In this document: piece by piece, positions 11,057 through 22,567 of the stretch
How positions within the stretch are numbered: position 1 is the first letter of the stretch
Layout: the number at the start of each line of letters is the position of its first letter
Source: Flavobacteriales bacterium
GTDB taxonomy: Bacteria; Bacteroidota; Bacteroidia; CAIKAF01
Direction: 5' to 3'
Assembly: GCA_022402535.1 (NCBI GenBank)
Contig: JAKRSD010000030.1
Location: forward strand, 59,283-107,435
Length of the DNA stretch: 48,153 nt
The notes under the pieces: model-generated
Databases searched by the model: none
The model's input: only the letters and a program-made list of their open reading frames with translations
What the model was told of the DNA's origin: nothing
Program-made: the position numbers and the translations under genes

Positions 11057-11064
11057 TACCTTTG
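11057..11064 (+). promoter_or_regulatory. -7 promoter box of lpdA (TACCTTTG)
   Basis: An exact match to the Bacteroidota -7 consensus TAnnTTTG, 25 bp before the lpdA ATG. A TTTTGG at 11028-11033 could be the -33 element, though the spacing is a few bases longer than usual. Confidence 0.7.
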
Positions 11065-13794: not shown

Positions 13795-14730
13795 TTATTT
13801 CCCTTCCGATAAATTCTTCAGCATATCCTCCGTCATGGATGCCAAGTCGTACGCAGGCTTCCATCCCCAATCTTTTCGGGCTTCCGAGTCATCAATGGAA
13901 GCGGGCCACGAATCGGCAATCGTCTGACGAAAATCGGGCTGATAACCGATCTCAAAATCGGGAATATGGCGTTTAATTGCTGCCGCTATTTCGCGGGGCG
14001 TAAAACTCAAGGCTCCCACATTGTAAGAAGTGCGTATTTTAACCTGTTCTGCCGGCGCTTCCATCAGTTCCAGTGTGGCCCGTATGGCATCGGGCATATA
14101 CATCATGGGCAATGCCGAATCTTCTTTCAGAAAAGAGGTATATCGTTTGTTTTTAAGGGCTTCGTGAAATATTTCAACGGCATAGTCGGTGGTTCCGCCG
14201 CCGGGAGGAGCCGTGTAGCTGATAAGACCCGGATAGCGCAGGCTGCGCACATCCACCCCAAATTTTTCAAAATAATAGCGGCACCACAATTCGCCCGAAT
14301 ATTTGGTGATTCCATACACCGTATTGGGGTCATTCACGGTAAATTGAGGCGTATTTACACGGGGTGTGGAAGGCCCGAACACCGCAATGCTGCTGGGCCA
14401 GTACATTTTTTTGATTTTTCCTTCGCGGGCCTGTTCCAACATAAACAGCAGGCTTTCCATGTTGAGCTGCCGGGCTTTGAGCGGGTGTTTTTCGGCCGTG
14501 GCAGAAAGCAAAGCGGCCAACAGATACACTTCATCCACATCATGCTGTTTGAGAATGTGTGCCGTGGCTTCAAAATCCATCACATCCAACACTTCAAAAG
14601 CACAGGGAGAATCACCTGCCGGGTTTAAGTCGGCAGCCACCACACGGTCGGCACCTTTTCGTTTTACCAGTTCGGCGGTCAGTTCTGTTCCAATCTGCCC
14701 TTTAGAGCCTATGATTAATATTTTCCCCAT
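13795..14730 (-). CDS. L-threonine 3-dehydrogenase, SDR (epimerase-like) type
   Basis: 311 residues. This is the short-chain-dehydrogenase form of threonine dehydrogenase known from animals and Bacteroidota, unrelated to the zinc-dependent Tdh of E. coli. It oxidises L-threonine to 2-amino-3-oxobutanoate with NAD+, the first step of threonine breakdown to glycine and acetyl-CoA. Visible: NAD-binding GSKGQIG (8-14), SSIAVFG (114-119 region), the catalytic YGITK (Tyr139, Lys143), and the family-specific segments RYPGLISY and PPGGGTTDYAVEIF (about 165-188). No 2-amino-3-ketobutyrate ligase is nearby. A TACCTTTG box stands 19 bp upstream of the start. Confidence 0.92.
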   Translation of the reverse strand: MGKILIIGSKGQIGTELTAELVKRKGADRVVAADLNPAGDSPCAFEVLDVMDFEATAHILKQHDVDEVYLLAALLSATAEKHPLKARQLNMESLLFMLEQAREGKIKKMYWPSSIAVFGPSTPRVNTPQFTVNDPNTVYGITKYSGELWCRYYFEKFGVDVRSLRYPGLISYTAPPGGGTTDYAVEIFHEALKNKRYTSFLKEDSALPMMYMPDAIRATLELMEAPAEQVKIRTSYNVGALSFTPREIAAAIKRHIPDFEIGYQPDFRQTIADSWPASIDDSEARKDWGWKPAYDLASMTEDMLKNLSEGK

Positions 14731-16471: not shown

Positions 16472-19396
16472 TTATCGTTTCACCATGCGTTTGGTTTCCA
16501 CGGGTTTTCCGTCCACATAAAGCGTGTAGGAATATATACCCGAGGCTAATGTTTCGGCATCGGCAGCTACGCTGAACTCGCCACGGTCAAACAACAGTTG
16601 GTTTTGGATAACTTTTCCTTCGTTTGAATAAAATATAATTTCGGCTTTGGCCACCGAAACGGGCAGATATACCGGAATACGGGTCTGCACATCAAACGGA
16701 TTGGGAATATTCTGCCCCAGACGCGGAGCGTCTTCGGTGTGAAGCCTCATGGGAACCACCGCACCGGTCTGGTTTTCATATTCGGCGGAACGGATATCCG
16801 AGGCTGTACAACAGGCCTGCAATTGGCTTTGCAGTTGGTTGATGCGCTCATTCTGCTCCTGAAAACCGGCAATCAGAATGGGGATAAGTTCAGTGTAGTT
16901 TACAGTTTTTATGGTTTTTGACTCAGTATTTCCGAGCGAATCCGGATTGTACTGAAAGGTTGCATTTCTTACTAATGAAGGAAAAACCGTTTCAAGTTCT
17001 TGTGCGATAACTCCATAATGCATCTGATTATCAGTTGCCATAAAAGTAGATGCGAAATCATTATAATGATATTCATATACATTCAAACTGTTCAACCTGT
17101 TTGTTGCATTAGTAATTGAACCATTTATATCTTTTATTTCTGCATCTGAACTTGAGAAAAATGCGGTTCCATTTACATTCCCGTCAAAAAAGCCCGCCCA
17201 GGTATTATTGGGAGGAACACCTAAATATGGCATACCGGTGGAATATATTCCGTATACATCAGAAGATCCGTTGATGGCACCAACTGCAGAAAAATATCCA
17301 CCATAAACAGTAGAATTATCTGTACCACTGGCAATAGCACTTATCCCATATGCAGAACCATTTGCAAAACCGGCTCCCTGAAAACTGCCTCCTTTATTAA
17401 CATAACTGCCATCTGTGTAAGATATGGCTCTACCATCTACAGCAACATTTGTGAAAGAATTAAATGCTGAAAATTTCCCGCCAATATTGGTTACCAAAAT
17501 TCCATTTACAAAAGCTGCTTCGTCACAAACTGATTCTACTCCAATATTGCTGTATGAGCCTGTGGATTTAAAATAACCTCCAAAATTATTTCTGTTCGGA
17601 CCATCAGCTATACTTCTTAACCCAAAACCCATTCCTGAGTAATTACCGGGGGCAGAAACATCAGAATTCAAGACAGAAAAACCTGATTTGTTGATTTCGT
17701 TCGGTATGGTAAGTGCTCTATTTACTTCAAGTTTTGCCGATGGTAAACAATTTGTTCCTATACCAACCCGGTCAGAAGCTGCATCCTGTCCTGAAAATAT
17801 CAGATTAAACCCGCCTAATGGCACTTCCGTATTTTGGGTTAATGTGGCAGAAGCGGCATTTCCGCACTGGGCACCGAAGTTGGCTGTTAAAGTGGAACCA
17901 TCACGCCAATAAATTCTTCCTAAATCATTGGGGTCTCTCACCAAAATCTGCTTCAGCTCATCTTTTTGGGTAACAGTCCGTATCCGGGCATCACCGTTTA
18001 CATCCAGCGTGGCGCCTATATAGCCGGCCGAATCGGGGCCATTTGGATTGTTGACTATATTCCCGTTTTGAATGATGCTAGGACTATAATTGCCTATACC
18101 CAAAGAACCCGTATTTACGGGGCAGGTGGCGCAAGCCGGCGTAAACCTTCCGATTTCTTGCCCATTGTCTGATTTTGCATCGGGTGTTCCGGGGCTGAGT
18201 GAAAATTGGGAATTGGCAAAAATGAAACGCAGGTTATCGGGTCCTGAGCCGTTTATCAGATTGGTTTGGTTATCGCCCCAGGCGATAACGGCATCCTGAC
18301 GGTCCTGACCTTCATCTTTCATGCCCACATATATATTATCTGTGCCGAATGTGGCCAGATAACCCACATTCATCCAATCCCTTACGCCGTCTGTTGAGCC
18401 TGCCTGCCCGCTGAGGCGGCCGCCTATGTGCATGAGTGAACGGGGTTCGGTAAGCGGAAATGCGGGGTCTACAGAAACCGCCACGCGTGTGGTTCCCGTG
18501 GCTGCCGTAACCGGCACACCCGGCGCACCCACATGGGTAAGGCGCATACGCTCACGCGCCAACTGGTTCACAGTGGAGGCATTGGTACTGAATATCATGG
18601 GCGCATTTTCCTGATTGTACAGATACGTATTGCCCACATTATTTACCCCAGCCCTGAAACCATCGGCAGCGAGCATTCCCGTGCCGGTTTGGTTAGAAAG
18701 TTGAAACCAGGTGCTCACGGCATTTTCTCCGTTTATGTGCAGTTGGCTCTGCGGCTGGGCCGCATTGCTGAACCTTGGTCCCATGCCCACGTTGCCTGTA
18801 GCCGTAAGGCGCATAATTTCGCGGCCATTGGGTGCAGTACCGTCAAGGTCTGCACCGGGAACAGTATTATCTCCAAAACCTGCCGTAAAGGCAAAAAGTA
18901 GATTATCCGGTCCTAAACTACCCGTCTGTGCATTATCTCCCCAAACAAACATGGCATCTGTTCTGTCTAAGGCATTGGCTCTGGGACCCATGTACATAAT
19001 ATCATCGTTGGCGGTAATGGTAATGCCGCTTCGCATCCAGTTACGAAAACCACCCGTACCCATGATACTGCCTTCGTAACCATTGAGATGCAACAGCGAA
19101 AGCGGCCCTCCGGAAGGGTTACCCAGCACATCGTTCCAATTGTTAATGTTGCCAAGGTTTCTTCCAAGACCCAAGAAACCGCTTCTGTCCACATTGGGCT
19201 GCCCGTTTACCGAAGTAGTAATATCCCGGTTTAAATACATACGAGAAATGTCCTGGGTTCGTATCCTTAAAGGCTGCTGGTTAAATGTCCCTAAAAATGA
19301 ATTATTTAATGCAGGATTACCAGTTAATTGCCATTGCCCGAAAGAAAGATTTGATACTAAAATTAGTACTGTTAAACTTAAAATTAATTTTTTCAT
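16472..19396 (-). CDS. Secreted protein with S74 intramolecular chaperone domain and T9SS type A C-terminus
   Basis: 974 residues. A signal peptide (ending LSFGQ) is followed by a long region of repeated segments (LLHLNG / LMHIGG; NIMYMG- and NIYVGMK-like; GPDNLLFAF / GPDNLRFIF) like phage tail-fibre-type beta-helices. A peptidase S74 (intramolecular chaperone auto-processing) domain follows at about 750-860: SSDAEIK with Ser750 and Lys755, the five-residue spacing of the Ser-Lys dyad in this family, then YGVIAQELE and FPSLV. A short coiled coil (QNERINQLQSQLQ) and a T9SS type A sorting domain (about 893-974; GQNIPNPF, ASGIYSYTLYVDG) complete it. The S74 domain normally trimerises the stalk and cuts itself off. 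Here cutting would also remove the sorting domain. Operonic with the upstream T9SS gene (11 bp). Confidence 0.9.
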   Translation of the reverse strand: MKKLILSLTVLILVSNLSFGQWQLTGNPALNNSFLGTFNQQPLRIRTQDISRMYLNRDITTSVNGQPNVDRSGFLGLGRNLGNINNWNDVLGNPSGGPLSLLHLNGYEGSIMGTGGFRNWMRSGITITANDDIMYMGPRANALDRTDAMFVWGDNAQTGSLGPDNLLFAFTAGFGDNTVPGADLDGTAPNGREIMRLTATGNVGMGPRFSNAAQPQSQLHINGENAVSTWFQLSNQTGTGMLAADGFRAGVNNVGNTYLYNQENAPMIFSTNASTVNQLARERMRLTHVGAPGVPVTAATGTTRVAVSVDPAFPLTEPRSLMHIGGRLSGQAGSTDGVRDWMNVGYLATFGTDNIYVGMKDEGQDRQDAVIAWGDNQTNLINGSGPDNLRFIFANSQFSLSPGTPDAKSDNGQEIGRFTPACATCPVNTGSLGIGNYSPSIIQNGNIVNNPNGPDSAGYIGATLDVNGDARIRTVTQKDELKQILVRDPNDLGRIYWRDGSTLTANFGAQCGNAASATLTQNTEVPLGGFNLIFSGQDAASDRVGIGTNCLPSAKLEVNRALTIPNEINKSGFSVLNSDVSAPGNYSGMGFGLRSIADGPNRNNFGGYFKSTGSYSNIGVESVCDEAAFVNGILVTNIGGKFSAFNSFTNVAVDGRAISYTDGSYVNKGGSFQGAGFANGSAYGISAIASGTDNSTVYGGYFSAVGAINGSSDVYGIYSTGMPYLGVPPNNTWAGFFDGNVNGTAFFSSSDAEIKDINGSITNATNRLNSLNVYEYHYNDFASTFMATDNQMHYGVIAQELETVFPSLVRNATFQYNPDSLGNTESKTIKTVNYTELIPILIAGFQEQNERINQLQSQLQACCTASDIRSAEYENQTGAVVPMRLHTEDAPRLGQNIPNPFDVQTRIPVYLPVSVAKAEIIFYSNEGKVIQNQLLFDRGEFSVAADAETLASGIYSYTLYVDGKPVETKRMVKR

Positions 19397-19407
19397 GTCA
19401 TTTATTT

Positions 19408-20376
19408 TTAATGAAACAGGCTTACGGTGCCGCTTTTGCGGGTTCCGTTGCCTTCAATTACATAAAAATAAACTCCGTCCGTAAGGCGTGTACCGTTGTT
19501 TGTTCTGCCGTTCCAATTAAGGCCGTATCCCTTTTGGGTATATACTTCAGTCCCCCATCGGTTGTATATGAACAGGCGCAGTTCGGTTATTCCGTCCCCT
19601 TCAAACAGAAACTCATCATTCACCCCGTCTCCGTTTGGGGTGAGTACATTGGGAAGTTCGGGTATATATCCGGGGCATATTCCGCAGGAAATAAGTTCAA
19701 CCATATCCACATAGTAATAAGCTGCTATTCCAAACCCTGGCCCCCAATTACCCGCCGAATAAAAGTTCGTTTTTAAATTGGGGCGGAAGTTGCCTATGGT
19801 CAGGTATTCCTCAATTCCTGTTCCGCAGATTTCACCGGATACGATTTCCCAATTTTCTTTATCGGTATATGAGATTCCTTCCGGGGTTTCTATCTGCGGC
19901 AGGTAGAATGAAACAGTATCCGACACAAACGGACCCGTAAGGGCTTCGGACGAAAAAAGAGCACCGAGTCGGTCTATTCCATATTCGCTTGAATCACTCA
20001 AACTGACATAATAGCTCAGACAATATTTACGGCCTTTTTCAAGTTTATGATTCAATTTTACCTGCATAAGTTCCGTCACAGGATTTGCAACCTTAATTCC
20101 TCCAAAAAATCCTCCATAACCATTGCCATCCATTGCATTTTGATTCCCTGGTATATTTAATGGTATACTCATTTCAGGTATCAAGCTACATGAATTAAAG
20201 TATTCAGGGCTAGCGGGTACAGGATCATACCAATTTTTCACATCAGAAAAATTACTTTCTTGCTGCGGACACTGCCAATATTCTTCAAAGCTGTGGTTTG
20301 GCACAAGATTCTGCGCCGAAACACCCAACTTAATGAATAAGCAAATAATGGTATATATGATTGAATAACGGAACAC
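19408..20376 (-). CDS. T9SS type B secreted protein, GTG start
   Basis: 322 residues. The start is GTG: an in-frame TAA lies two codons upstream and no ATG precedes the signal peptide (residues 1-21, ending VSAQ). The N-terminal domain begins LVPNHSFEEYWQCP, followed by NWYDP and NIPGNQNA, a pattern common to Bacteroidota secreted proteins with a galactose-binding-like fold. The last 85 residues are a gliding-motility-associated C-terminal domain (LPNVLTPNGDGVNDEF, FIYNRWG, WNGR, GVYFYVIEG). It is probably surface-attached after T9SS export. It is the first gene of a pair with the S74 protein, 11 bp apart, so the two may act together at the surface. Confidence 0.9.
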   Translation of the reverse strand: MFRYSIIYTIICLFIKLGVSAQNLVPNHSFEEYWQCPQQESNFSDVKNWYDPVPASPEYFNSCSLIPEMSIPLNIPGNQNAMDGNGYGGFFGGIKVANPVTELMQVKLNHKLEKGRKYCLSYYVSLSDSSEYGIDRLGALFSSEALTGPFVSDTVSFYLPQIETPEGISYTDKENWEIVSGEICGTGIEEYLTIGNFRPNLKTNFYSAGNWGPGFGIAAYYYVDMVELISCGICPGYIPELPNVLTPNGDGVNDEFLFEGDGITELRLFIYNRWGTEVYTQKGYGLNWNGRTNNGTRLTDGVYFYVIEGNGTRKSGTVSLFH

Positions 20377-20614
20377 GCCTTACAAACGAAGTTTATTGAT
20401 TAAAATCATACCGCCCTCACTCAGGCAGCGGGCGGCATATTAACCCTGTGGCAGCATAAAAGTAAGTTACATGTTTGTATTTAATTTTTCATCAAACCTT
20501 AAAACGGTAAAAATACTATTAAACCCGTCAGATTAATAACATCCTCCGCACTTTGGGGCATCCCGCCCCGCCGTGCGAAACTATTCTGATTTTTTTATTC
20601 TCCCCGCAAAGGCA
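20377..20614 (-). promoter_or_regulatory. Upstream region of the T9SS gene pair, with GC-rich hairpins
   Basis: No gene seen. A 6-bp stem CCGCCC / GGGCGG (20411-20435) lies 35 bp before the GTG start of the T9SS gene and could lie in its 5' leader or be an operator. A second GGGGC / GCCCC hairpin occurs near 20555-20569. No clear -7 box was found for the T9SS pair. Confidence 0.35.
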
Positions 20615-20622
20615 TACCTTTG
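20615..20622 (+). promoter_or_regulatory. -7 promoter box TACCTTTG with no gene behind it
   Basis: Identical to the lpdA and typA -7 boxes, including the following GCGC. It is followed after about 6 bp by a two-hairpin segment ending in a T-tract rather than by a reading frame. Confidence 0.6.
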
Positions 20623-20627
20623 CGCCC

Positions 20628-20699
20628 GTGTTTGGAACCTAGTAATTTTAAACACCGGAGGGAGACTGTTTATCTCATAAGCGGTCTCCTTTCTTTTTT
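20628..20699 (+). ncRNA. Candidate small RNA (about 70 nt)
   Basis: Starting just after an exact -7 box, the sequence folds into a first stem GTGTTT / AAACAC (20628-20633 with 20650-20655) and a second, stronger stem GGAGACTG / CGGTCTCC (20661-20668 with 20682-20689, one G-T pair), then TTTCTTTTTT. Promoter, compact folds and terminator on one strand with no open frame support an independent short transcript. It matches no RNA family I recognise (not the tmRNA, SRP or 6S core motifs). A cis-regulatory leader is unlikely because no plus-strand gene follows for about 1.9 kb. Confidence 0.5.
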
Positions 20700-21117
20700 A
20701 TAAATAATGCTGTTACCTTTTCTGCTGAAACCGATTGGTGAAAGCACCCACCGGAGGCCAATGTATTCAGAGTATTTACCATAATTATTTCCAACACCTG
20801 CTGTAATTGCCGTTTCGTAATGCATCCCGCACTGCCCCATAAGTTTTCGGTGCCCGCTCTCACACTCACACTCACTCTGCCTAAAGAGGGGGGGGGGGGT
20901 AAATATTTGATATACATTAGGTTCCATTTTCAGTCAGTATATATGCTAATTGTGAGGGTTTCCAAATATAAAAAAAGGGAATCTAAACCTCCAAAGACCT
21001 GTTGAAAATTTAACGTATTCAGGGAGGAAAAATAGGCAATGGATCAAAAAGTATTGAATAGTTGTATTGAGTATTTAGATGTACCCTATTTGGTGGCATA
21101 ATTTTCAAATTGCCAAA
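20700..21117. other. Gene-poor stretch with a possible gene remnant on the minus strand
   Basis: No convincing gene. On the minus strand two overlapping short frames end near 20670. One carries residues such as HYETAITAGVG and YGKYSEYIGLRW, which read like a fragment of an outer-membrane beta-barrel, and both begin next to a 12-base G/C homopolymer. This may be a decayed gene end, but the frames are short and compositionally odd. Confidence 0.25.
20888..20899. repeat. G12 homopolymer beside a CACTCA microsatellite
   Basis: Twelve consecutive G residues follow CTCTCACACTCACACTCACTC (about 20857-20877). Runs this long slip easily in replication and in sequencing. Confidence 0.9.
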
Positions 21118-22559: not shown

Positions 22560-22567
22560 TACCTTTG
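22560..22567 (+). promoter_or_regulatory. -7 promoter box of typA (TACCTTTG)
   Basis: Exact match to TAnnTTTG, 25 bp before the ATG and followed by GCGCCC as at 20615. No good -33 element was found. Confidence 0.65.

Follow-up and report, generated by a model that had tools for sequence, protein, structure and literature searches.

Positions 20615–20699 (+ strand) of the 48 153-nucleotide stretch of Flavobacteriales DNA analysed here (the window) raise the question of whether they hold the gene of a small RNA (sRNA) and, if so, what such an RNA would act on. An earlier note on the sequence had proposed a stand-alone sRNA: a promoter box followed by two hairpins and a T-tract, with no gene behind it and no recognizable RNA family.

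Box, fold and terminator

On the + strand the element consists of TACCTTTG (20615–20622), a few bases, a 10 bp hairpin, one base, a 17 bp hairpin and six T residues. Stem-loop 1 (20628–20655, +; 10 bp and an 8 nt loop) was delimited by folding and alignment, and stem-loop 2 (20657–20693, +; 17 bp) by folding, terminator prediction and alignment; with the T-tract (20694–20699, +) stem-loop 2 forms a good intrinsic terminator. Folding of 20623–20700 (+) gave two hairpins at −31 kcal mol−1 (z = −5.8), a stability equalled by none of 200 shuffles, which confirms the roughly 70 bases of structure originally described. The opposite strand (20610–20700) reached a z of only −1.0.

The −7 consensus of Bacteroidota is TAnnTTTG in the accessible text of two reports (PMC7366714; PMC9723704). 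No −33 TTTG was found 19–22 nt upstream of the box at 20615–20622; according to the accessible part of the former report, a −33 motif was likewise not found in F. johnsoniae (PMC7366714). In the window TACCTTTG occurs six times, against a mean of 1.98 in 100 shuffles, two of which reached six. Four copies are intergenic and two lie inside ORFs; three of the intergenic copies stand 19–25 nt before an ORF start and the fourth is the sRNA box. The octamer is found at 11057, 25 nt before an lpdA-like ORF, at 22560 before typA, and 19 nt ahead of an ORF that starts at 14730 (−), so that the identity of the sRNA box with those of lpdA and typA holds. Elsewhere in the genome to which the window belongs (the host) CATACCTTTGCGCCCG precedes a gene, and in a relative CATACCTTTGCTCCC precedes an ORF that we take, from its start, to be yidC-like. 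Because the same box stands before genes, it is a credible promoter. The RNA would start at about 20629, at the foot of hairpin 1, as judged from the box spacing; the predicted sRNA (20629–20699, +; about 71 nt) is further based on folding, covariation and covariance-model (CM) searches.

None of the 4227 families in Rfam 15 matched the window at gathering thresholds, and between 20300 and 21000 the sole match at E values up to 5 was UptR, outside the element; with no Rfam match to the element, a known RNA family was ruled out as its identity. The next + strand ORF of at least 150 aa begins 1970 nt downstream, which rules out a leader of a + strand gene. Both absences had been anticipated in the earlier note.

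Copies and distribution

A DNA search of the host genome returned two further copies, on contigs C5 (100% over 140 bases) and C12 (at 199 kb; 81%). A CM built from these and the window (group A) identified four more with E values of 9e-9 to 1e-6 (group B: C17, C20, C28 and C12:742), of which those on C17, C20 and C28 are identical to each other, and the next round added an eighth host copy on C29. Contig C8 stops roughly where a ninth copy would begin. In the class (395 genomes) 21 genomes had a CM match at E 0.01; of the 22 rows from other genomes, 20 were ordinary terminators by eye and two, both from G173, a genome of another family than the host, had box, stem 1 and terminator. A third CM matched four of 399 genomes in the order of G173, namely G173 (four copies), G499 (one copy) and two with a terminator only; its family (240 genomes) gave the same two true genomes, G173 and G499, and two with a terminator only. 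The host alone matched among 395 genomes of the phylum. In its own order (16 genomes) the full element was present in the host alone, with weak rows in two relatives. The genome sets of the class, order, family and phylum searches overlap. Weak or other matches in 19 other genomes of the class and in G010, G614, G487 and G729 were rejected as terminators by eye; G001 gave a weak match with the first model and was set aside.

In total, 13 copies show the full architecture; they belong to three genomes from two families (host, eight; G173, four; G499, one), and the covariance search that had been suggested for Bacteroidota found the two-stem structure conserved across them. Few true genomes emerged from the class, order, family and phylum searches. 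This makes the sRNA family a rare and patchy one, unless it diverges past the search filters. The group A sequence matched no plasmid or phage, and carriage on either was rejected; a single-protein scan for further loci found nothing.

The box is retained as TACCTTT in 12 of the 13 copies, followed by G in eight and by A in four (group B); the G499 copy has TATTTTTG. In group A only, a palindrome read from the sequence, CGCAAAGG-CATA-CCTTTGCG (20605–20624, unstranded), spans the promoter box, and it carries a paired change in the C12:199499 copy (CTCAAAGG..CCTTTGAG).

Covariation and strand

In a model alignment of eight distinct rows, 96.8% of the cells pair and 18 of the 27 base pairs have changed on both sides, including six of the ten in stem 1. 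None of 500 shuffles reached the covariation score of this alignment, which was fitted to the model; sliding the partner by 1–3 columns lowered pairing to 44–61%. With five rows aligned by MAFFT, 97.8% of the cells paired and 11 of 27 pairs were changed on both sides. Copies within a genome are kin; the G173 rows come from another family. The + strand is identified as that of the RNA by 51 G–U cells, which pair on the sRNA strand only: 96.8% of the cells are paired there, 74.1% on its complement. On these figures and the folding z of −1.0 versus −5.8 the other strand was rejected. In group B both strands fold well.

The least conserved part is the 8 nt loop of stem 1. Window and C12:199 kb, although the same in both stems, differ at six of its eight positions; C17 and C12:742 do not differ in it. 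Such variability speaks against a fixed seed and would suit either an RNA that acts purely through its structure or one whose antisense pairing is specific to each copy. A plain terminator or terminator-only repeat was rejected because stem 1 and the box are also conserved, covary and persist. The reading as an sRNA that has a promoter and a terminator of its own has good support, since these parts are kept together in 13 copies with extensive compensatory change. The element is very probably a real gene of a structured sRNA, its transcription being predicted from these features.

The divergent operon

The gene that lies head-to-head with the RNA encodes an exported protein at all 13 copies. 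The neighbours of 12 are related proteins of the type IX secretion (T9SS) kind, several of which have T9SS sorting domains when scanned; that of C29 is lipoprotein-like (346 aa, no family above cut-off). In the window the divergent gene (19408–20376, −) encodes an exported protein of 322 aa with a T9SS type B (CHU_C) sorting domain (Pfam PF13585, E 2e-22; TIGR04131). The next gene of the operon (16472–19396, −) encodes 974 aa with an endosialidase-chaperone (Peptidase_S74) domain and a weak T9SS type A tail, below cut-off. Second genes of this surface-fibre kind have Peptidase_S74 in the window and G173, and begin similarly in C5, C12 and G499.

The neighbours in the window, C5, C12:199 kb, three G173 copies and G499 (322–351 aa) could be aligned and have an N-terminal 'NLVxNxSFE' and a C-terminal TPNxDGxN in common; the five that were scanned all score as T9SS type B. 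The fourth G173 copy adjoins a 179-aa remnant. In group B, the two of four neighbours scanned whole (1330 and 1290 aa) are T9SS type A; the C17 neighbour was covered in an N-terminal part, identical or nearly so to C20, and that of C12:742 is truncated by the contig end. No susC domain was reported in the scanned neighbours, which have T9SS sorting domains instead. Matches to a T9SS type B profile number 49, 43 and 41 in the three RNA-bearing genomes, most type B genes having no sRNA. The seven best matches are the profile's own rows; next come two host genes (C27) without the RNA and one in G173 (C7) that runs to the contig end. Among relatives of the type B protein elsewhere (80 kept of 467), none of the 80 loci carries the RNA at E 0.01, and two gave weak rows (0.097 and 0.24).

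Multiplicity and linkage to a divergent gene go beyond the earlier note and qualify its proposal: the small RNA stands, on box, structure, terminator and covariation, and 'stand-alone' falls, as the copies are a paralogous set that always faces a gene for an exported protein. They very probably represent a new, patchy, paralogous sRNA family, conserved in structure and tied to T9SS surface operons, whose function we infer. The pattern points to a family of regulatory RNAs not described before.

Candidate operon promoter and leader

A motif search on the mRNA strand placed a consensus −7 box, TATATTTG (20963–20970, −), beyond the sRNA, with a −33 TTTG (20992–20995, −) at 21 nt from it; the spacer is 21 in C5 and 20 in C12:199499, and the −33 TTTG is also seen in C8 by eye. 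This is a candidate start of a long operon leader. Of the 13 copies, 11 have a mRNA-strand TAnnTTTG beyond the sRNA (group A, 3/3; group B, 4/4; G173, 4/4), at 221–268 nt in group A, 227–229 nt in group B and 18 nt in G173; the exact box is absent in the G499 and C29 copies. In group A, where the −33 TTTG lies at 20–21 nt, the chance probability of the −33/−7 pair is 0.007 in the window stretch. For the bare box outside group A it is about 0.2–0.3 per locus, and the copies of one group do not count as independent. The 160 nt adjoining the sRNA promoter contain no exact mRNA-strand TAnnTTTG in any of the seven copies (of 13) that were tested. In group A a box matching at seven of eight positions, TGCCTTTG, lies directly back-to-back with the sRNA promoter, so that a short leader without overlap is possible; it would be the main competitor to the far-side operon promoter. 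With an operon start located between the sRNA and its divergent gene, there would be no overlap of the two RNAs. If the far-side boxes are the operon promoters, the sRNA would be perfectly antisense to a leader of about 580 nt in the window, as in the DonS arrangement.

Proposed function and alternatives

We propose that 20615–20699 is the gene of a short, almost fully folded sRNA, with a sigma-A-type −7 box, a 5′ hairpin and a terminator hairpin. The gene would be carried in a duplicating module along with the divergent operon, whose products are exported T9SS surface proteins. The sRNA would most likely control this operon, and negative control is the more probable. In the mechanism placed first, the operon mRNA would begin beyond the sRNA, which would then be cis-antisense to the long leader and would lower operon expression by pairing or by colliding transcription. 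The reading as a whole, with predicted transcription, likely repression and a candidate long leader, is given a probability of roughly 0.42. The reason for favouring local repression, possibly antisense, is that three sequence groups have an opposite-strand consensus promoter on the far side of the RNA. Against antisense pairing, the RNA is nearly all double-stranded, which is unusual for a pairing RNA.

The closest arrangement is that of the DonS-type RNAs of Bacteroides, which, in the accessible text of the report, lower susC gene expression as cis-antisense RNAs (PMC7366714). They too are Bacteroidota sRNAs, several per genome, that are divergent to a gene of an outer-surface protein system and are predicted to be structured antisense RNAs. 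As far as that text goes, they differ in their neighbour (susC there, a T9SS-exported protein operon here) and in length (78–128 nt versus about 71 nt); overlap with the mRNA is putative for the present RNA, and the two-hairpin fold described here is conserved across families.

The copies could instead be trans-acting, FopS-like paralogous sRNAs that regulate the mRNAs of other surface proteins from their own promoters, perhaps together with an RRM-type RNA-binding protein encoded in the genome, the divergent placement reflecting co-duplication. We consider this unlikely. The element is multicopy with near-identical stems, each of the three genomes has two RRM_1 proteins, and FopS is a precedent in the accessible part of its report (PMC11697453). 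Compared by description, FopS appears to be the nearest paralogous regulator: like the present RNA, FopS and GibS are paralogous multicopy Bacteroidota sRNAs with a sigma-ABfr-type promoter, aimed at surface proteins. FopS, as described there, acts in trans through a 5′ seed (R1′) that pairs near the start codons of target mRNAs and is bound by RbpB, an RRM protein, whereas the 5′ end here is closed in a hairpin. No single-stranded seed is conserved, as the divergent loops on identical stems indicate, and a local role is favoured by the linkage, in both families, to the same kind of gene.

A function in which the fold matters and the RNA sequence matters little has a similarly low probability; the RNA would be a decoy titrating an RNA-binding protein, or its transcription would act on the divergent promoter through supercoiling or polymerase occupancy. 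The compact RNA has sealed ends, its structure is more conserved than its sequence, and the neighbouring leader shows no pairing or mimicry above chance. In a crude duplex test, which also reports the RNAs' own inverted repeats, pairing of 12 of the 13 sRNAs (C20, equal to C17, was omitted) with the neighbour's leader gave z values of −1.3 to +1.0 against shuffles and no preference for the cognate leader, so that direct pairing outside an overlap is not supported; for same-sense mimicry none of the 12 fell below P 0.06. The binding protein of a decoy is, however, still hypothetical, and conserved covariation of two stems would be needless if transcription alone mattered.

That there is no regulatory RNA, and that a promoter remnant and a terminator are repeated as a T9SS-gene DNA module duplicates and recombines, is improbable. 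The window and C5 copies match at every position of 20520–20699; identity is lost sharply at 20700, directly after the T-tract, and the flanks are less similar, so that duplication or conversion took the RNA along with the sequence around it. The module boundary at the C5 contig end falls within a broken S74 gene, and many CM matches elsewhere are plain terminators, as the 20 of 22 rows noted above. Against this, stem 1, which lies outside the terminator, has two-sided changes in most of its pairs, and box, stem 1 and terminator stay together across two families. A type I toxin–antitoxin pair, with the RNA as antitoxin to a small opposite-strand ORF (20927–20670) that in group A overlaps the terminator hairpin, is very improbable, as a stop breaks the ORF in the C12:199499 copy, the poly-C tract shifts the frame between copies, the group B ORF is unrelated and the small ORF is not hydrophobic (both by eye).

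Relation to other small RNAs

Rfp18 of Flavobacterium psychrophilum, judged by description, is also a structured Bacteroidota sRNA linked to secreted proteins; it differs in being needed for precise protease expression with predicted pairing through a third stem-loop, and the accessible text mentions neither paralogues nor divergent placement (PMC9723704). Within the terms used, no sRNAs tied to T9SS operons were found in the openly accessible literature. Bacteroidota export many proteins through the T9SS, and the papers found on sRNAs of this phylum deal mainly with glycan-uptake (susC) systems. A covariation-supported RNA family beside T9SS operons across two families raises the testable question of whether each surface operon has its own RNA switch, and supplies a covariance model usable for annotation.

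Variable tracts and leader features

A poly-G/C tract at 20888–20899 has a length of 12 in the window, 5 in C5, 8 in C8 and 8 in C12:199 kb. It lies inside the opposite-strand small ORF, beside hexamer repeats of variable number (about 20860–20880), and tract and hexamers may reflect slipped-strand phase variation of the leader ORF. The modules could even be a new class of mobile or duplicating Bacteroidota surface-protein cassette, in which every T9SS adhesin operon is equipped with a structured antisense RNA of its own, lying in a long leader together with the variable homopolymer and hexamer tracts, so that the cell would switch the displayed surface fibre; we think this doubtful.

At the C5 contig end (locus L072, 17870–17928) an S74-type gene breaks off into sequence of the far module edge, through rearrangement or insertion or an assembly join. 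The 9-mer AATACGTTA occurs in modules at window 21011, L072 15528 and 17875, L074 5208, L075 6988, L076 6954, L077 642, and L069 5775 and 7852; one more L070 copy lies elsewhere. These positions are of three unrelated kinds (far module edge, start-codon region and upstream of the G173 sRNA). The pattern was spotted post hoc; unrelated loci totalling 614 634 bases contain five copies. The 9-mer may be a regulator site or a recombination edge.

Upstream of the sRNA promoter, a GC-rich inverted repeat (CGCAC...GTGCG) with a T-run at 20545–20600 of the window is conserved in group A and falls within the possible leader of the operon. In L032 and L033 the leader of the group B gene has, on the mRNA strand shortly before the start codon, an attenuator-like GGCGTT...AACGCC hairpin followed by 8–9 T residues, which is lost in C17 and C20. 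A leader stretch common to G173 and G499, CCCTTTCCTGTTTTTGG, with flanking bases that pair, lies on the mRNA strand 60–110 nt before the sRNA promoter in L069 and L078 and may form a leader hairpin.
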